Source of the DNA: a virus
Reading direction: 5' to 3' (one strand)
IMG/VR virus record: IMGVR_UViG_3300044846_001138
Span: 1 to 26,508 of that record
DNA length: 26,508 nt
The position numbers and the translations under genes were made by a program. Below are positions 3,745 to 26,508 of this stretch, piece after piece. The first letter of the stretch is position 1. The number at the start of each line of letters is the position of its first letter. Under the pieces are notes generated by a model, which ran no database searches, was not told the origin of the DNA, and was given only the letters and a program-made list of their open reading frames with translations.

Positions 3745-3768
3745 ATAAATAATTATATATAATGTATT

Positions 3769-3795
3769 GCCGCTTATAATAAGTGGCTTTTTTTT
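3769..3795 (+). terminator. intrinsic terminator closing the lysis/exonuclease unit
   Basis: A 7-bp stem (GCCGCTT at 3769-3775 with AAGTGGC at 3781-3787, one G-T pair) and a 5-base loop are followed directly by eight T residues (3788-3795). It lies 24 bases after the last gene of the unit and just before the promoter at 3811-3848. Confidence 0.85.
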
Positions 3796-3810
3796 GTAAA
3801 ATAAATTAAT

Positions 3811-3848
3811 AAAGTGTATATTTTATGGATAAAAGATGTATATTTGTA
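3811..3848 (+). promoter_or_regulatory. Bacteroidota-type promoter, copy 1 of a duplicated 38-bp element
   Basis: The -7 box TATATTTG (3839-3846) fits the Bacteroidota consensus TAnnTTTG. The 38 bases match 14648-14685 at 31 positions without a gap, including an identical 18-base block AAAAGATGTATATTTGTA. Both copies follow a boundary between units and lie 32-42 bases (from the -7 box) before a gene start. No clear TTTG -33 box is present; the shared TGTnTA at 24 bases upstream of the -7 box may replace it. Confidence 0.75.
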
Positions 3849-3873
3849 ATGCCGTAATAAAACCATACGGCAT
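3849..3873 (+). promoter_or_regulatory. perfect inverted repeat at the expected transcription start (operator or 5' hairpin)
   Basis: ATGCCGTA (3849-3856) and TACGGCAT (3866-3873) are exact reverse complements around a 9-base loop. The repeat begins 2 bases after the -7 box and ends 7 bases before the ATG at 3881. As DNA it could be an operator overlapping +1; as RNA it would be a hairpin at the 5' end that could stabilise the message or shield the start. The second promoter copy (14648) has no such repeat. Confidence 0.6.
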
Positions 3874-3880
3874 AAATACT

Positions 3881-4090
3881 ATGAAAAGTTTTAAATTTAT
3901 TGGTGAAGCCAAATTCGGCAAACCTGAAGACATTTTTTATTACACTACCGAAGATGACCATTATATACCGGATTCGGGTAGTCATATAAAAGAAACTGCT
4001 TATGAAAAGTTTTTAATCTTAGCGCAGGGCGGTTCTTTAAAACCTACAAAAGAAATATTTGAAGAAATATTATTTGAACCTAAAAATTAA
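3881..4090 (+). CDS. small protein, first gene of the replication/recombination unit
   Basis: 69 aa from the ATG at 3881. An upstream in-frame ATG at 3836 overlaps the promoter's -7 box and would be untranscribed, so 3881 is preferred. The product (MKSFKFIGEAKFGKPEDIFY...) is a mixed alpha/beta acidic protein without recognised domain. As the promoter-proximal gene of the ERF/SSB-like/DnaA-like unit it is likely expressed early. Function unknown. Confidence 0.65.
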   Translation: MKSFKFIGEAKFGKPEDIFYYTTEDDHYIPDSGSHIKETAYEKFLILAQGGSLKPTKEIFEEILFEPKN

Positions 4091-4372: not shown

Positions 4373-4924
4373 ATGAAATTAATAAACATTCAAGCAGAAT
4401 TAAAAGCGCCTAAAAATCAAACCAATTCATTTGGTAAATATAAATACAGAAGCGCAGAGGATATAATTGAAGCAGTAAAGCCAATTTTATTTAAATATCA
4501 AACCGCGCTATTAATTAGTGATGAAATAGTACAAGTAGCCGATCGAGTTTATGTAAAGGCAACGGCAATGCTAATAGATGAAAATAATGAGGAATTACCC
4601 GTCAAAGTTTATGGTTGGGCGCGCGAAGAAGAAATAAAAAAAGGAATGGACGCAGCGCAGATCACCGGATCGGCAAGTTCATATGCGCGTAAATATGCAC
4701 TTAATGGATTATTTGCAATTGATGACACTAAGGATTCAGATGCAACAAATGAACATAAGGACGAAGTTGGCGAAGAAAAGCGTATGAAATTAATAACTTT
4801 ATTAGAGAATACTATTTGGGATGAAACCCTAAAAAGTAAGCAGGCTATAAAGATTAGCGCATACACTACGAACGATCAATATGATAAAGCACTTAAAATT
4901 ATTTTAGCAAACCAAAATAAATAA
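4373..4924 (+). CDS. erf: ERF-family single-strand annealing protein
   Basis: 183 aa. The N-terminal ERF pattern is visible: LKAPKNQTNSFGKYKYRSAE (residues 11-30), then an alpha/beta core ending in the family's hallmark block around residues 96-118 (QITGSASSYARKYALNGLFA followed by IDDTKDSD). ERF proteins anneal complementary single strands and drive RecA-independent recombination, often helping to circularise or repair phage genomes. The C-terminal 50 residues are a variable charged tail. The SSB-like gene two places downstream is a natural partner. Confidence 0.88.
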   Translation: MKLINIQAELKAPKNQTNSFGKYKYRSAEDIIEAVKPILFKYQTALLISDEIVQVADRVYVKATAMLIDENNEELPVKVYGWAREEEIKKGMDAAQITGSASSYARKYALNGLFAIDDTKDSDATNEHKDEVGEEKRMKLITLLENTIWDETLKSKQAIKISAYTTNDQYDKALKIILANQNK

Positions 4925-5368: not shown

Positions 5369-5794
5369 ATGGAATTTAATAACAATTTAATACAATGTTA
5401 CAAAGATCAATTGCAGAGTTTACGAATGTTTCATAAAGAATTAGTAAAAGCTAAATTAATAACAGATGATCTTGCAATAGGTTCAGTTTCTACAAGTATT
5501 CTTCCACATAGATTAGTTGAATTAGTTGAGGATGTTTTTGATACAAGTATTCAAATTAAGAACAGAAGCCAAAGCGTAATTTTTGGACGAAAGGCGGCGG
5601 CTTATATTCTTAAAAAATATACTCAATTATCACTTAATGAAATAGCTAAGCATATAGGAGTGGGAGATCATACAACCGTGATTTATAACATAAAAACTGC
5701 GGAAAATCTAATGGATACCGAAGAATGGTATAAAGAAAAAGTTGATGAAATTGAGAAAGAAATTGAAAATTTTAGTAACTTTGTAAAAGAATAA
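5369..5794 (+). CDS. stand-alone DnaA domain IV-like DNA-binding protein
   Basis: 141 aa. Residues about 48-125 match the C-terminal DNA-binding domain of DnaA: a helix LVELVEDVFD, then GRKAAAYILKK, the helix-turn-helix LSLNEIAKHIGVGDHTTVIY (residues 88-106), and NIKTAENLM. The DHTTVIY segment corresponds to the DnaA-box recognition signature. There is no AAA+ ATPase domain, so it cannot act as a complete initiator. The N-terminal 45 residues are unrelated. It could mark the phage origin, recruit the O-like replication protein encoded next, or compete with host DnaA. Confidence 0.82.
   Translation: MEFNNNLIQCYKDQLQSLRMFHKELVKAKLITDDLAIGSVSTSILPHRLVELVEDVFDTSIQIKNRSQSVIFGRKAAAYILKKYTQLSLNEIAKHIGVGDHTTVIYNIKTAENLMDTEEWYKEKVDEIEKEIENFSNFVKE
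5776..5783 (+). promoter_or_regulatory. possible -7 box (TAACTTTG) before the leader of the replication gene
   Basis: TAACTTTG fits TAnnTTTG and lies within the last codons of the DnaA-like gene, about 20 bases before the 94-base gap that contains an inverted repeat and a terminator. No well-spaced -33 box is seen, and the 38-bp duplicated element is not conserved here, so this is a weak candidate. Confidence 0.25.
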
Positions 5795-7453: not shown

Positions 7454-7768
7454 ATGGATATATCAGCAAACGATCTAACAAAGTGGGCAAAAAAGAACCT
7501 TGAATTAATTGGTTGGCGGTTAAATAGGGTGAACAATATTCCATTTGGAAAGCGAAAAGGAACAATACAAAAAGGGTGGGCGGATCTGCAAGGCTACACT
7601 GAAAAAGGTATTTATGTAGCGGTCGAAGTTAAAAAGATAGGTGATAAACTAAGCCTTGAACAAAAGGATAGGTTAAAAGATATTTACGAATGTGGCGGAA
7701 TTGTGTATATTTGTACTGAAGTCGATTCTAAACCCACATTAGTAGAATGGTCAAAAATGAAATTTTAG
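7454..7768 (+). CDS. VRR-NUC-type PD-(D/E)XK nuclease
   Basis: 104 aa. The compact nuclease core is complete: GWAD at 41-44 (acidic D44), VAVEVKK at 55-61 (E58, K60 of the ExK motif) and a downstream Q in SLEQKDRL (Q70), followed by ECGGIVYICTE. This is the order and spacing of VRR-NUC/Holliday-junction-resolvase-like enzymes in phages. Likely cleaves branched DNA produced by ERF-mediated recombination or replication. Its last 22 bases overlap the start of the sigma-like gene. Confidence 0.78.
   Translation: MDISANDLTKWAKKNLELIGWRLNRVNNIPFGKRKGTIQKGWADLQGYTEKGIYVAVEVKKIGDKLSLEQKDRLKDIYECGGIVYICTEVDSKPTLVEWSKMKF
7706..7713 (+). promoter_or_regulatory. possible internal -7 box upstream of the sigma-like gene
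   Basis: TGTATATTTGTA around 7704-7715 repeats the core of the two 38-bp promoter copies, and its distance to the next ATG (7747) is 41 bases, like copy 1 (42). It lies inside the nuclease coding sequence (VYICT), where the codons may exist for protein reasons, and the upstream half of the 38-bp element is not conserved. Confidence 0.3.
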
Positions 7769-8241
7769 CAGAATATTGGGACTTAAAAGAAGTCAATGAT
7801 GCGTTTGCTAAGATGCAGCCTGAAGAATTACAATATGATTTAAAGGCAGAAGTTTTTTTAGTTCTTTGTGAAATGAATGAAGATAAATTAAAGGGAATGT
7901 ACGAAAGGAATGAATTGAAATTCTATATAGTACGAATTATGCTTAATATGATTAAAAGTGATCGAAGTACATTTTATAAAAATTATAGAAATCATATTGA
8001 GTTTGTTGATGTGGATAAGGATTTCGAAATTATCAATTATGATAAAATGGATTTGATTGATAAACTTGAAAAGAATTTAGAAGGACTGCATTGGTATAAT
8101 AAAGAGATTTTAAAACTTTACGCTATTGACTTTAAAAAGAACGCAAAAGAGTTAAGTCGTAAAACAGGAATCCCTTATATGTCATTAGTTAGAACTATAA
8201 ATAAAACCAAAAAACAAATGAAAACAAATATTAGAAAATGA
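7747..8241 (+). CDS. sigma-70-like transcription factor (putative)
   Basis: 164 aa. Residues about 28-80 (YDLKAEVFLVLCEMNEDKL, then FYIVRIMLNMIKSDRSTFYK) resemble sigma region 2 of short sigma-like proteins in Bacteroidota phages, where an aromatic-basic helix contacts the -10 element and core polymerase. The C-terminal part (NKEILKLYAIDFKKNAKELS and KTGIPYMSLVRTINKTKKQM) has the layout of region 4 helix-turn-helix. Similarity is by pattern, not by a strict motif. If active, it is the obvious candidate to recognise the duplicated 38-bp element. Overlaps the nuclease gene by 22 bases. Confidence 0.55.
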   Translation: MVKNEILAEYWDLKEVNDAFAKMQPEELQYDLKAEVFLVLCEMNEDKLKGMYERNELKFYIVRIMLNMIKSDRSTFYKNYRNHIEFVDVDKDFEIINYDKMDLIDKLEKNLEGLHWYNKEILKLYAIDFKKNAKELSRKTGIPYMSLVRTINKTKKQMKTNIRK

Positions 8242-13322: not shown

Positions 13323-14473
13323 TGCGCATAGAATTACCAAACCCACATATCAATCAAAAAAAGATATTAGAATGCGAAAAGCGTTTTATTGTCGTAATGT
13401 GTGGTCGTCGATTTGGTAAGTCAGAAATATCACAGATCATAGGAATCAAAGAAGCAATTACAGGCGGGCAAGTTGCCTATATTACACCAACGTATAAGTT
13501 AGCAAAAACCTTTTTTGAAAAGCTAACTTCAGCAATACCTTTTAAGAATAACATATCGAACCTAAAGATCTATTGTCCTAATAATGGATCTATTGAATTT
13601 TTTACAGGCGAAAGGCTTGACAATTTAAGAGGTCGCAAATTTAATTTAGTAATAATTGACGAGGCTGCTTTTATACCTGATCTTGAAAGCGGGTGGCAAA
13701 ATAGCATTCGACCAACGCTTACAGATTATGAAGGGAAGGCGGTTTTCTTATCCACGCCAAGAGGAAAGAATTTCTTTTATTCAATGTTTATGAAAGAGGG
13801 TGAGAATGATTGGAAAAGTTTTAAATTCACTACCTATGACAATCCATATATAAACAGAAAGGAAATAGACGAGGCAAAGATGCAATTACCGGAAGTTGTA
13901 TTCGAGCAGGAATATATGGCTAACCCCGCAGAAAATAGCGCTAACCCATTTGGCAACGCATTTATTAGGCGCTGCATTAAACCGGTATCTTCGCAACAGA
14001 TTGTATCCTATGGAATTGATTTGGCTAAGTCTGTTGACTTCACCGTTATCATAGGGCTTGATAAAGATGGCTGCGTGGCTTATTTTGACCGCTTTCAAAT
14101 GGATTGGCATAATACTAAGGCAACAATTAAAAGGCTTCCTATTGCGCCTATATTAGCAGATAGCACGGGAGTTGGTGATCCTATCCTCGAAGATCTAATA
14201 AGAGACGGCGTAAATATAGAAGGTTTAAAATTTACAAGTCAATCTAAGCAGCAACTTATGGAAGGCTTAGCGCAGGCAATTCAACAGGGCAAAATAAGTT
14301 ATCCGGATGGAGTTATAGTTGATGAACTTGACGTCTTTGAATATCAATTCACCGCGAATGGCGTTCGCTATTCAGCGCCTTCAGGATTCCACGACGATTG
14401 CGTGATGGCTTTAGCTTTAGCGTGGCAAAATCATAATCTTAAAAGAGGATCAGGGCGTTACGCCTTTGCTTAA
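13322..14473 (+). CDS. terL: terminase large subunit (ATPase-nuclease)
   Basis: 383 aa, GTG start overlapping the previous stop. ATPase: Walker A GRRFGKS at 28-34, Walker B LVIIDEAAF at 109-117 (D113, E114), motif III LSTPRGKNFF (143-152). RNase H-like nuclease: GIDLAKSVDFT (231-241, D233), LADSTGVGD (279-287, D280) and HDDCVMALALA (357-367, D358 or D359). The length is near the lower end for TerL. It translocates DNA into the prohead and cuts it. The HNH gene 2 kb upstream suggests a cos-type mechanism. Confidence 0.93.
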   Translation: MRIELPNPHINQKKILECEKRFIVVMCGRRFGKSEISQIIGIKEAITGGQVAYITPTYKLAKTFFEKLTSAIPFKNNISNLKIYCPNNGSIEFFTGERLDNLRGRKFNLVIIDEAAFIPDLESGWQNSIRPTLTDYEGKAVFLSTPRGKNFFYSMFMKEGENDWKSFKFTTYDNPYINRKEIDEAKMQLPEVVFEQEYMANPAENSANPFGNAFIRRCIKPVSSQQIVSYGIDLAKSVDFTVIIGLDKDGCVAYFDRFQMDWHNTKATIKRLPIAPILADSTGVGDPILEDLIRDGVNIEGLKFTSQSKQQLMEGLAQAIQQGKISYPDGVIVDELDVFEYQFTANGVRYSAPSGFHDDCVMALALAWQNHNLKRGSGRYAFA

Positions 14474-14624
14474 TCGATCATAAAAGGATCACTAAAGGGC
14501 AATATTTGAGCCGAATATGACCGATAAACGGATCATTTTTGATTGATAAACGGCTTTTTAGCCTAAAAACTACATTTTTTAATATTTTTTAGCTTTATAA
14601 TCTATTGTAAATGAATGTTTTATG

Positions 14625-14642
14625 ATTATTTTTAAAAATAAT
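14625..14642 (+). repeat. 18-base perfect AT palindrome upstream of promoter copy 2
   Basis: ATTATTTTT (14625-14633) is followed at once by its exact reverse complement AAAAATAAT (14634-14642), ending 5 bases before the 38-bp promoter element. In very AT-rich DNA such a palindrome is less surprising than its length suggests, but its place fits an upstream operator or UP-type element. Confidence 0.4.
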
Positions 14643-14647
14643 TGTAT

Positions 14648-14685
14648 AAAATGTGTAGAATATGAACAAAAGATGTATATTTGTA
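14648..14685 (+). promoter_or_regulatory. Bacteroidota-type promoter, copy 2 of the 38-bp element
   Basis: -7 box TATATTTG at 14676-14683. Identical to copy 1 (3811-3848) at 31 of 38 positions, gap-free, with the same TGTnTA placed 24 bases upstream of the -7 box. The next ATG is at 14708. It begins the block of small genes between terminase and tail module. Confidence 0.75.
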
Positions 14686-14707
14686 TAACAAAACAAAAAA
14701 ACACTTT

Positions 14708-15043
14708 ATGAAAACTACAACCGAAAGAGTAAGAACAATCAGAAACGAATTGAAAAACGCTTTACCTGCGTACAAATTTTCAGTAACTAAAAGACATTAC
14801 AACGGAGTAAGCATTCAAATCCTATCCGGACCGGCAAAGCTAACTGAACAAGGTTACGAGAATGTAAATATTTATTACATTAGCGAGCAACCTGAAGGAG
14901 TTAAAAAAAATGTATTAAATGTTATTAATACAATAGCAAGCGAAGGGGTTACATATAGAGAAACAGGCGACTACGGAACGCAACCTGACTTTTATGTAAA
15001 TATCAAGATCGGAGAATTTAATAAACCATATATTCATAATTAA
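14708..15043 (+). CDS. LPD29-like small protein (putative)
   Basis: 111 aa from the ATG at 14708 (MKTTTERVRTIRNELKNALP). A TTG at 14681 is inside the -7 box and cannot be the start. The stretch AYKFSVTKRHYNGVSIQILS with QGYENVNIYYI later resembles the large-polyvalent-protein-associated domain LPD29, small alpha/beta domains common in phages and plasmids of Bacteroidota. Similarity is loose. As the first gene after a promoter and followed by a terminator at 15056-15078 it may form its own transcript, the usual design of an accessory (moron) gene. Confidence 0.6.
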   Translation: MKTTTERVRTIRNELKNALPAYKFSVTKRHYNGVSIQILSGPAKLTEQGYENVNIYYISEQPEGVKKNVLNVINTIASEGVTYRETGDYGTQPDFYVNIKIGEFNKPYIHN

Positions 15044-15044
15044 T

Positions 15045-15078
15045 CCCCCGCAGGGGTGCGACTGCCCAACGCACTTTT
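15045..15078 (+). terminator. tandem hairpins, second one a terminator
   Basis: Two hairpins share base 15056, so they may compete: CCCC/GGGG (15045-15048, 15053-15056) with a CGCA-type loop, then GTGCG/CGCAC (15056-15060, 15070-15074) with a 9-base loop followed by TTTT (15075-15078). It separates the LPD29-like gene from the next; a short T run makes it moderate in strength. Confidence 0.65.
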
Positions 15079-15090
15079 AAAATTAACTTT

Positions 15091-15219
15091 ATGAACAGAT
15101 TGAAAACATTACAGGAAAAAAGAAACGAGCAATACAAAGCGGAAAGCCTAAGCGGAAAATGGTTTTGGTATATAATGGGCGGCGCTTTATTATTAACGGC
15201 TTTAATAGAAAATATTTAA
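15091..15219 (+). CDS. 42-aa single-pass membrane protein
   Basis: ATG at 15091, stop 15217-15219. Charged N-terminus (MNRLKTLQEKRNEQYKAESL) and one transmembrane helix (about 24-40, WFWYIMGGALLLTALIE). No family recognised. It starts 12 bases after the terminator T run and ends 3 bases before the next ATG, so the two genes are probably co-transcribed. Short phage membrane proteins of this form often act on the host envelope, but nothing specific is seen. Confidence 0.55.
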   Translation: MNRLKTLQEKRNEQYKAESLSGKWFWYIMGGALLLTALIENI

Positions 15220-15222
15220 TTT

Positions 15223-15378
15223 ATGCCATATTCAACTTGTTGCGGTGCGCACACTAACTTTGACGAAATAGATATTTGCCCTGATTGCTTAGAACATTGT
15301 GATTGGGAAGAAGAAGACGAAGATGATGACGAGGATACAGACACTAAGATCGAACAGGATAAACTAAACAAATTATAA
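15223..15378 (+). CDS. 51-aa zinc-ribbon protein with acidic tail
   Basis: ATG at 15223, stop 15376-15378. Cysteines at 6, 7, 19, 22 and 26 (STCCGAH; ICPDCLEHCDW) form a small zinc site; the following 15 residues are almost all Asp/Glu (EEEDEDDDEDTD). I have seen this CCGA...ICPxCxEHCxW layout in other Bacteroidota phages. Metal binding is likely; the acidic tail may contact a basic partner or mimic DNA. Confidence 0.62.
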   Translation: MPYSTCCGAHTNFDEIDICPDCLEHCDWEEEDEDDDEDTDTKIEQDKLNKL

Positions 15379-15384
15379 ACGCAC

Positions 15385-15455
15385 GCCGCCTGAAGCATTT
15401 TTTAATATTAAAAAAAACAAAGGTAGTAATTTGGGTAACTTTGGGCGGCATTTTT
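15385..15455 (+). promoter_or_regulatory. long-loop GC-armed structure with internal palindrome
   Basis: GCCGCC (15385-15390) pairs with GGCGGC (15444-15449), followed by ATTTTT. The 53-base loop contains a perfect 18-base AT palindrome (15398-15415) and a TAACTTTG box (15436-15443). The arms plus T run could be a terminator with a large loop; the box could be a -7 element for the next gene. The structure ends 11 bases before the ATG at 15467. Confidence 0.45.
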
Positions 15456-15466
15456 AAATCTATTTT

Positions 15467-15628
15467 ATGACAAAGAACAACTATCTAATGGGACAGGAAT
15501 ATTTATTAAGAATTGAAAATGAATGTCTTATAGAGAAAATATTGAAATTAGAAAAGGAAATCGGATTAAAGGAAAAAGAAATAAGGGATCTAAAAAGGGA
15601 AATTCAGAAAAAAGAAGTAAATTCATAA
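15467..15628 (+). CDS. 53-aa coiled-coil protein
   Basis: ATG at 15467, stop 15626-15628. After MTKNNYLMGQEYLLRIENEC the chain is a continuous heptad-like helix (IEKILKLEKEIGLKEKEIRD...), rich in Lys, Glu, Leu and Ile. Likely a small oligomer or a partner protein. No family recognised. It stands between two GC-armed long-loop structures, so it is probably transcribed on its own. Confidence 0.55.
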   Translation: MTKNNYLMGQEYLLRIENECLIEKILKLEKEIGLKEKEIRDLKREIQKKEVNS

Positions 15629-15636
15629 AAGATTAT

Positions 15637-15704
15637 CCCCGTCCAAATTCAACAATCATTTTAAACAGGGGTGTTTAGGTATGTCAAGGGCGGGGGTATT
15701 TTTA
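15637..15704 (+). terminator. long-loop hairpin terminator
   Basis: CCCCGTCC (15637-15644) pairs with GGGCGGGG within 15688-15695 (seven Watson-Crick pairs and one G-T) across a 43-base loop; TATTTTT follows, ending near 15703. The loop is larger than usual, yet the arms are strong for AT-rich DNA. It ends about 11 bases before the ATG at 15715. Confidence 0.5.
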
Positions 15705-15714
15705 AATTAATACT

Positions 15715-16071
15715 ATGATTAAAAACTTTGAAGAAATTACAAAGGAAATGACAGAGGACGAAAAGAAACTTGTTCCTTTGATTATTCGCGGATTAAGTAC
15801 AAGGACAAAAGAAAACCCGATTAAAGGCGCGGAAATAGTCAGCGCAATCAATATCCAAAAGGATAAATACGGGATTAAATTATTTTCTGAACCACGTTTA
15901 AGAAAAATAATTAACTTTATTAGGGCTGAAAGTATCCTTCCTGTTATGGGTACGTCAAACGGCTATTATGTTACAAAGGATCGGTCAGAATTAGAAAGTC
16001 AAATTGAAAGCCTAACGCAAAGATCAGAGGCAATAATGTCAAGCGCTAACGGATTAAAAAAATTTTTATGA
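15715..16071 (+). CDS. winged-helix-like conserved phage protein
   Basis: 118 aa. KKLVPLIIRGLSTRTKENPI, KGAEIVSAIN, then PRLRKIINFIRAESILPVMG and NGYYVTKDRSELESQI follow the helix-helix-strand-wing order of a small winged-helix domain that I know from Bacteroidota phages, where it is unnamed. The C-terminal 35 residues are a helix. DNA binding (regulator or replication accessory) is inferred from the fold pattern. Overlaps the next small gene by 4 bases (ATGA). Confidence 0.68.
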   Translation: MIKNFEEITKEMTEDEKKLVPLIIRGLSTRTKENPIKGAEIVSAINIQKDKYGIKLFSEPRLRKIINFIRAESILPVMGTSNGYYVTKDRSELESQIESLTQRSEAIMSSANGLKKFL

Positions 16072-16226
16072 AAGAATTAATTGAACTTCGGGATTGGGTT
16101 GATCAACAATGCAAAACAGGGCAGCCTTTTACCTGCGCGGACGTACTAAATAAGATTGATGAAATCTTAGAAACTGACACAGATATTGAAGAAATATATT
16201 TAACTTCGTGCTATGAAATGGAATGA
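16068..16226 (+). CDS. 52-aa acidic hypothetical protein
   Basis: ATG at 16068 overlapping the winged-helix gene (ATGA), stop 16224-16226. Product MKELIELRDWVDQQCKTGQP...YLTSCYEME is acidic and helical. It fills exactly the gap to the tail-chaperone-like gene and overlaps its start by 14 bases, which supports translation. No family recognised. Confidence 0.55.
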   Translation: MKELIELRDWVDQQCKTGQPFTCADVLNKIDEILETDTDIEEIYLTSCYEME

Positions 16227-16887
16227 ACTAACGCTTTGGCAATATCAGCAATTGATGCCTACAATCACTAATCCTAACAAGGATTGGACTGAATTAGATG
16301 CAGAAGTTAAACAACTTTGCATTGTAACAGGGCTTACAGAATACCAAATAGATAGCCTTTCATTAACTGCATTAAAGGAACTGCGCAAAGAATTAGCTTT
16401 TTTAAACGAACCTATTGAAGGTAAGCCTGTTAATTATATAGTAACAAACGGCAAGCGCTATCGAATTAACTATGATATTAAGAATATGCCTTCAGCAAGG
16501 TATATAGAAAGCAAAGTATTTAGCAAAGATACATTGGCTAACCTTCATAAAATAGCGGCTTCTATGGTGATCCCGCAAAAGCGCAATTGGTTCGGAAAAT
16601 GGGTAGATCAGGATTATGATGCGAGCAAGCACGAAGAATATGCAGCCGATATGCAAGAAGCTAACTTTGTTCATATTTATCATTCGCTTGTTTTTTTTTA
16701 TCAAGTCTACAAAAATTGGATCGAAGTTTCAAGGGATTATATGACGGCGGAAATGACGAAGTCGGGGATGACGAAGAATCAAGCGGATATGGTGGTGGAT
16801 CTTTTATTAGAATCTATGGATGGCACTACACCTGTTACCTTGTTGCCGCCCAAGAAAATATTGGAATTAAAGAAGTATTTGAAATGA
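16213..16887 (+). CDS. candidate tail assembly chaperone (G-like)
   Basis: 224 aa. Opening MKWNELTLWQYQQLMPTITN resembles small tail-assembly proteins of Bacteroidota phages (N-W-x-x-L-T-x-x-Q-Y-Q-x-L); the C-terminus (MTKNQADMVVDLLLESMDGT, LLPPKKI) matches the same group. It is followed with an ATGA overlap by a 28-aa ORF. At 16691-16699 a run of nine T gives the slip site T-TTT-TTT in frame; the -1 frame is then open to 16970 and contains the downstream ORF. This is the G/GT layout of tail chaperones, though those usually lie next to the tape measure gene; here two structural genes and more intervene. Call by pattern and context. Confidence 0.55.
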   Translation: MKWNELTLWQYQQLMPTITNPNKDWTELDAEVKQLCIVTGLTEYQIDSLSLTALKELRKELAFLNEPIEGKPVNYIVTNGKRYRINYDIKNMPSARYIESKVFSKDTLANLHKIAASMVIPQKRNWFGKWVDQDYDASKHEEYAADMQEANFVHIYHSLVFFYQVYKNWIEVSRDYMTAEMTKSGMTKNQADMVVDLLLESMDGTTPVTLLPPKKILELKKYLK

Positions 16888-23413: not shown

Positions 23414-23447
23414 ATGATAAATATATAAATAAAAACTATTTAAGGAT

Positions 23448-24041
23448 ATGAATACAGAATTACCAATATATATGTTAGATATTACCGAGAATATTGAAGA
23501 CGATTCACAAGTCGACTTTATTGCATTGGTAGATCGACCTGCAATTCAAAAGAATTGGAACGCATTTAATAAAAGTCAAAAATTTGAAGTTACAAATGAA
23601 GATCGTCGTATTATTTCGGGCGCTATTATGTTGGCTGATACGCCTATTTTTAGGTCTGACGCTACTTATGGCGACTATTATGTGGCTTTTAGTGCTGATA
23701 CTATTCTTAAAATTGTACAAAAGTTTTTCAAAAAAGGATTCCAAAGCAATGTCAATTTAATGCATAATTCAAACGCACAATTTGAAGGCGTTACATTATT
23801 CGAGAGTTTTATTTCTGATCCTTCGCGTGGTATTATGCCAATGAAAGGATTTGAAGATGCACCTGTTGGAAGTTGGTTTGGTTCAATGATCGTAGATAAT
23901 GAAGACGCGTGGGCTAAGGTAAAGAATGGTGATATTATGGGCTTCAGCGTTGAAGGGTTATTTAACTACAAACCTAAAGAGGTTAATAAAGTTGCATCAA
24001 TGGTGGATGCTATTAAAAAAATATTGTCACAAGTTAAGTGA
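23448..24041 (+). CDS. prohead protease, XkdF-like serine protease
   Basis: 197 aa. IYMLDITENIEDDSQVDFIA and LVDRPAIQKN (28-37) are the start of the XkdF-like protease group (PF14550 type). Catalytic candidates: H106 in NLMHN, S120 in VTLFESFISD, and the conserved GFSVEG block at 165-170. The protease cleaves scaffold and capsid during head maturation. The gene is directly followed by scaffold and capsid, as expected. A clear purine-rich site AAGGAT precedes the ATG. Confidence 0.82.
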   Translation: MNTELPIYMLDITENIEDDSQVDFIALVDRPAIQKNWNAFNKSQKFEVTNEDRRIISGAIMLADTPIFRSDATYGDYYVAFSADTILKIVQKFFKKGFQSNVNLMHNSNAQFEGVTLFESFISDPSRGIMPMKGFEDAPVGSWFGSMIVDNEDAWAKVKNGDIMGFSVEGLFNYKPKEVNKVASMVDAIKKILSQVK

Positions 24042-26229: not shown

Positions 26230-26257
26230 GTTTGTTTTTCATAGGTTTATAGGTTTG

Positions 26258-26290
26258 CCGCCGTTCGTTAATTCGTTCGGCGGTTTTTTT
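26258..26290 (+). terminator. intrinsic terminator after the tail tube gene
   Basis: CCGCCG (26258-26263) pairs with CGGCGG (26278-26283), with a further CG/CG pair inside and a short loop, then seven T (26284-26290). Confidence 0.9.
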
Positions 26291-26508
26291 ATAGATCATA
26301 TATGAGCCGATTGTCAATTAAATATGGCTCAAAGTTTCCTTATTGGGTAACTTTTGTGATTGATAAAGTTTACTATTAGAGAACTTATGTAACCAAATTG
26401 GGAACATTGTACAATGTTTTAGGTACAATATGTAAAATGTTGTAATGGAATTAGGGCGAATATGCTACTGATTTATAGGTATTTGTAACAAAATATGTTA
26501 AATGTTAG
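26291..26508 (+). other. non-coding region rich in palindromes and shared motifs
   Basis: 218 bases with no ORF of note. It contains GAGCC/GGCTC arms (26304-26308, 26326-26330), ATATATGAGCCGATT (26298-26312) and TGATTGATAAA (26357-26367), both found after TerL, the perfect palindrome AACATTGTACAATGTT (26403-26418) and several AATGTT words to the window end. Likely a regulatory region or origin ahead of the next gene; no -7 box matching the 38-bp element is complete. Confidence 0.55.
26403..26418 (+). promoter_or_regulatory. 16-base perfect palindrome, candidate operator
   Basis: AACATTGT joined to its exact reverse complement ACAATGTT. Half-sites recur nearby (AAAATGTTG around 26435-26443 and AAATGTTAG at the window end), which suggests several binding sites for a dimeric protein. 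Confidence 0.5.

Follow-up and report, generated by a model that had tools for sequence, protein, structure and literature searches.

The 38-bp element that is duplicated in this phage most likely represents two ordinary-class promoters for the primary sigma factor of the host (Bacteroidota sigma-A/sigma-ABfr type), a reading to which we assign a probability of about 80%. Its direct basis is sequence, position, orientation, conservation, and covariation, from which we infer the use of the host polymerase, the start sites, and the function of a hairpin in one of the transcripts. The window analyzed here is the whole 26,508-base record. As a fragment, it covers 26.5 kb of a tailed phage of ∼33 kb, and all of its likely genes lie on one strand.

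The host is probably a member of the Chitinophagaceae, a likely assignment made at the family level only, because a close relative of the phage, a contig of 32.9 kb, was binned in a Chitinophagaceae metagenome-assembled genome (MAG; UBA8137) and more distant terminases, with 59 to 60% identity, are encoded by long contigs from another member of the Chitinophagaceae, Pollutibacter soli. This MAG bins two contigs of the phage family (G002:C36 and G002:C198). The annotated phage collection that we searched held no close record, and many of the relatives used in our comparisons are fragments.

Conservation and orientation of the two copies

The two copies, at 3811-3848 and 14648-14685 on the plus strand, are identical at 31 of 38 positions without gaps, and 18 of these form an unbroken run (AAAAGATGTATATTTGTA; 3831-3848 and 14668-14685). 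These figures of the original prediction proved exact on re-check, as did the TGTnTA that it placed 24 bases upstream of the -7 box TATATTTG in both copies (3815-3820 and 14652-14657). Across the whole window, this is the best direct 38-bp self-match and the sole direct pair with at least 30 matches; dinucleotide shuffles of the window yielded a maximum of 30, with none of the 60 reaching 31. Both copies lie in genuine intergenic gaps (3745-3880 and 14474-14707), and no other TAHHTTTG box outside genes in the window is preceded by TG.

Related phages share both locations of the element. Its form 5' of the ERF block is AAAGTGTATA..ATATGgATAAAAG.TGTATATTTG, and its form 3' of the terminase is ATGTATA.AATATGTATAAAAG.TGTATATTTGTATAACAAAA, followed by differing first genes. 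The consensus for the window's clade, based on 22 nonredundant sites, is ATGTATA.AATATGtaTAAAaG.TGTATATTTG, with less conserved flanks. A near-complete relative (C198) has only two full-type sites in 33 kb, both at the corresponding positions, and orientation and distance to the start codons are fixed across relatives. The 10-mer TGTATATTTG occurs in relatives 130 times on the plus strand and 6 times on the minus strand, where the plus-strand matches include one conserved coding instance: an exact TGTATATTTGTA inside the VRR-NUC gene at 7454-7768, which is kept there as protein sequence and acts as a decoy in pattern counts. The 15-mer AAAGnTGTATATTTG, found 45 times on the plus strand and never on the minus strand, is for this reason the cleaner test of orientation. 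The original prediction would have been undermined had the element been equally frequent inside genes in either orientation; we ran this check and found a strong sense bias. The claim of a duplicated, promoter-like element is thus borne out by sequence, position, orientation, and conservation.

Beyond the family, the 18-mer had 46 matches in viral contigs versus 3 for a reversed control, and its sites in unrelated phages mostly lie just 5' of an open reading frame start. Three exact 16-mers were located upstream of chromosomal genes in 395 Bacteroidota genomes, and a fourth belonged to a phage of the window's family. We found no paper describing the element in a search of a collection of open-access papers.

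Host promoter features and the upstream box

Primary-sigma promoters of F. johnsoniae have TAHHTTTG at -12 to -5 and, at -18 and -28, AT-rich motifs that outweigh any signal at -33 (PMC6847099). The sigma-A box of F. psychrophilum is TAnnTTTG, also at -12 to -5 (sigma-A motifs SM1-3; PMC9723704), and the Bacteroides -33/-7 promoter, read by sigma-ABfr, combines TTTG with TAnnTTTG (PMC7366714). The TATATTTG boxes of the two copies, at 3839-3846 and 14676-14683, conform to TAHHTTTG. Both copies have AAAAG at -19 to -15 and the clade consensus is AT-rich at -30 to -26, consistent with the -18/-28 motifs of F. johnsoniae. The phage copies thus share with the promoters of F. johnsoniae and F. psychrophilum the -7 box, the inferred distance to the start, the register of the AT tracts, and a short A-rich leader. 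They differ from the F. johnsoniae form by two additions, TG at -14/-13 and, near -25, a TATGT/TGGATA-like element, and their start is a predicted one. They also share the -7 box with the Bacteroides promoter, but the TTTG expected ∼19 to 21 nt 5' of that box is replaced in the window by TGTATA or TGTGTA; a sister phage clade does have it. Scans for sigma-70 sequences (TTGACA/TATAAT) around both sites gave no more matches than chance.

According to the original prediction, the identical AAAAGATG just before the -7 box goes beyond the known Bacteroidota consensus and could mark a site for a specific factor. This argument is not supported, since AT-rich -18/-28 motifs are already part of the published consensus (PMC6847099), the 18-mer occurs at promoter positions in unrelated phages, and the 16-mers stand upstream of chromosomal genes of other Bacteroidota. 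What is family specific beyond that consensus is the TG at -14/-13, the TATGT near -25, and, in the window's clade, the TGTATA/TGTGTA that replaces the -33 TTTG. The conserved TATGT is not known in host promoters, so an additional factor could be involved. Between tandem genes of the putative-host MAG, TAHHTTTG shows a sense bias (36 versus 12), and the promoter set is small, with 22 aligned sites; the signal in Pollutibacter soli intergenic DNA was too weak to define promoters. We also considered TG at -14/-13 as a general host-promoter feature and rejected it, given no enrichment among the few sites of the putative-host MAG (1 versus 1) and a mild one in other phages (15/103).

Under the preferred reading, recognition and melting of the -7 box by the host holoenzyme would be assisted by the TG just 5' of it and by the AT-rich tracts at -18 and -28, one and two turns of the helix upstream. 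RNA would start 4 to 5 nt past the box, at about 3851 and 14688, as predicted with the spacing known from F. johnsoniae (PMC6847099). Promoter 1 would launch the replication unit directly behind a terminator, with an RNA that opens with a conserved hairpin, and promoter 2 would launch an exchangeable accessory cassette between the terminase and the structural gene that follows. Both promoters of the window's clade would have had their -33 TTTG turned into TGTATA/TGTGTA.

The upstream box provides the most serious competitor to this reading. The sister clade has a canonical TTTG ∼20 nt 5' of the -7 box at both promoters, and the window's clade has TGTATA/TGTGTA at both, in the register of the -33 TTTG. 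Among the 21 genomes with both sites, all 6 from the TGT clade have TGT at both promoters, and the other 15 have TTTG at copy 1 (15/15) and at copy 2 (14/15). TGTATA-like hexamers recur in the window's clade at -36, -25, and -14, spaced by 11 bp. In promoter 1 these are TGTATA (3815-3820), TGGATA (3826-3831), and TGTATA (3837-3842), and in promoter 2 they are TGTGTA (14652-14657), TGAACA (14663-14668), and TGTATA (14674-14679). It is possible, though unlikely, that these hexamers form an operator on one helix face of promoters used by the host primary sigma factor, where an activator or repressor of phage or host origin would coregulate both units. The consensus of the 22 clade sites with its less conserved flanks agrees with this idea, as do the shared state of the upstream box at both promoters in the TGT clade, with TTTG in the others, and the rarity of the -25 element in Chitinophagaceae chromosomes (4 matches versus 1 for a control in 296 genomes). 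However, a single switch between TTTG and TGTATA suffices on the terminase tree, so the agreement between the two promoters counts as one shared event rather than many. The middle hexamers of the window's own copies are degenerate, AT-rich phase alone matches the promoters of F. johnsoniae, and no candidate for the protein that would bind them emerged.

Activator sites made of 11-bp direct repeats, such as the pho box, replace the -35 box. Similarly, the window's copies have TGT-containing repeats 11 bp apart in the place of the upstream box, but their third repeat overlaps the -7 box. A bolder version of the operator proposal, which we regard as improbable, is that the clade rebuilt its two main promoters on the phased hexamers (-36, -25, and -14) in place of the host -33 box, to be read by a putative activator or an altered holoenzyme, and so coupled the replication unit to the exchangeable accessory cassette. 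Of an added regulator and a strong-promoter variant read by the host polymerase alone, both of them possible, we favor the variant.

The sigma-like protein and a third intergenic region

The original prediction named the 164-aa product of the plus-strand gene at 7747-8241 as a factor that might read the element. TIGR02937 was matched in every one of 17 relatives, with scores under the curated cut-off, and on this basis the protein appears to be a divergent ECF-type sigma factor whose membership in the sigma70-ECF superfamily is weak but consistent. Solved structures yielded no match in a profile search, and the AlphaFold model (mean pLDDT, 57.8) was too poor for use. Most relatives with the element also encode the protein, as would be expected if the element were the promoter that it reads, but the two dissociate both ways. 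One clade (L082-L087 and L091) keeps the sigma-like protein at 63 to 65% identity, with terminases 85 to 86% identical. An ERF-block promoter was not detected in this clade, and its terminase abuts the next structural gene, so that copy 2 and the cassette are both absent. In the other direction, the exact 18-mer is present in 16 unrelated phage records, which include some near-duplicates (about a dozen distinct kinds) and may be fragments; 15 of them had no match to the family profile of the sigma-like protein and 1 had a partial match.

Other evidence points the same way. The C-terminal half of the protein is near-invariant across the TGTATA and TTTG clades, even though the upstream box of the promoters changed between them. 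The published Flavobacterium ECF promoter motif (SM6) has a CGT box rather than TAnnTTTG (PMC9723704), and this ECF-type -10 box is absent from the element, whose box is TATATTTG. In addition, the sigma-like gene apparently belongs to unit 1, whose own promoter should therefore be usable before any of the protein has been made. From the dissociation and the near-invariant C-terminal half, we reject this protein as the reader of the element and consider it highly unlikely that the element is its cognate promoter. Least credible of all is a repeat with no promoter function (serving recombination, packaging, or replication) or a fortuitous AT-rich resemblance: intergenic DNA is AT-rich, and genes have been exchanged at copy 2, between the terminase and gp16213, but the fixed orientation and start-codon distance, the exact -7 box, the shuffles, and the kinship to the canonical promoters of the sister clade all speak against it.

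A third long intergenic region occurs at 26230-26508 of the window, at about 28029-28535 in C198 (L367), and in L538-L617. In the window it follows a terminator, and it continues in relatives, where it has variable inverted repeats such as AAAGTAAAGGCAAAACTTTAC and ends in a conserved block, TGCAACAAATT ... GCTATWTAGTnAT-ATG, directly 5' of a start codon and upstream of the portal gene. TAHHTTTG is absent from this region in 70 of 78 relatives, and the clade without either copy of the element keeps a form of the block. This region is a candidate promoter of another class, and the sigma-like protein may more plausibly act there than at the two copies.

Predicted transcription units and the accessory cassette

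The gene layout fits the original prediction that both copies start transcription units, with the start positions being those predicted from the sequence. Upstream of promoter 1, a plus-strand intrinsic terminator at 3769-3795 (hairpin 3769-3787, GCCGCTTATAATAAGTGGC, followed by T8) would close the preceding unit; the chance expectation for such a terminator is 0.6 per kb stretch, and C198 has a hairpin and T run at the same place. The first gene of unit 1, at 3881-4090 (plus strand), encodes a 69-aa protein with no assigned function; an ATG at 3836, within promoter 1, is not its start. It is followed on the same strand by genes for an ERF single-strand annealing protein (4373-4924) and a protein with a DnaA C-terminal DNA-binding domain (5369-5794), and apparently by the sigma-like gene.

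The promoter 1 transcript is predicted to begin with a 5'-terminal RNA hairpin at 3849-3873 (plus strand; arms ATGCCGTA/TACGGCAT), which starts at the predicted +1. In 12 relatives, 96.7% of pair cells are paired and two pairs are changed on both sides, with wobble pairs also present. This covariation was equaled by 14 of 500 shuffles, providing good but not overwhelming support for the hairpin. The loop, ATAAAACCA, is near-invariant.

Behind promoter 2, the first accessory (moron-like) gene, at 14708-15043 on the plus strand, has an LPD29 domain match, and unrelated genes take its place in relatives. The leader of this gene is rich in A, which is what translation in Bacteroidota would lead one to expect. 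The region from the terminase to gp16213 (14474-16212) is a hypervariable cassette in which the promoter and leader are kept and the first genes vary (L049-L127). A consensus scan of 14300-16300 detected no sense-strand terminator, and the stretch at 15629-15714 contains GC-rich inverted repeats accompanied by T runs. At several structural-gene starts (window 23430-23450; L082, L084, L086, L087, and L091), we observed a CTATTTA box 4 to 9 nt 5' of the start codon, which could be either a promoter or a translation signal.

A moron is an inserted accessory phage gene with its own promoter. At copy 2, accessory genes lie between conserved neighbors behind what appears to be their own promoter. 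As with a moron, relatives have either both copy 2 and the accessory genes between the terminase and the following structural gene or neither of them, and one clade lacks both promoter 2 and the cassette. Unlike a moron, the block behind copy 2 holds several genes.

The promoters of Bacteroidota phages have been little studied. Across this family, the same two promoters form a series that runs naturally from TTTG at -33 to phased TGTATA while the -7 box stays constant, and this series can be used to test the role of the upstream half of the Bacteroidota promoter. It also shows a way to keep an accessory cassette expressed, in which the putative promoter stays in place and the first gene behind it changes.
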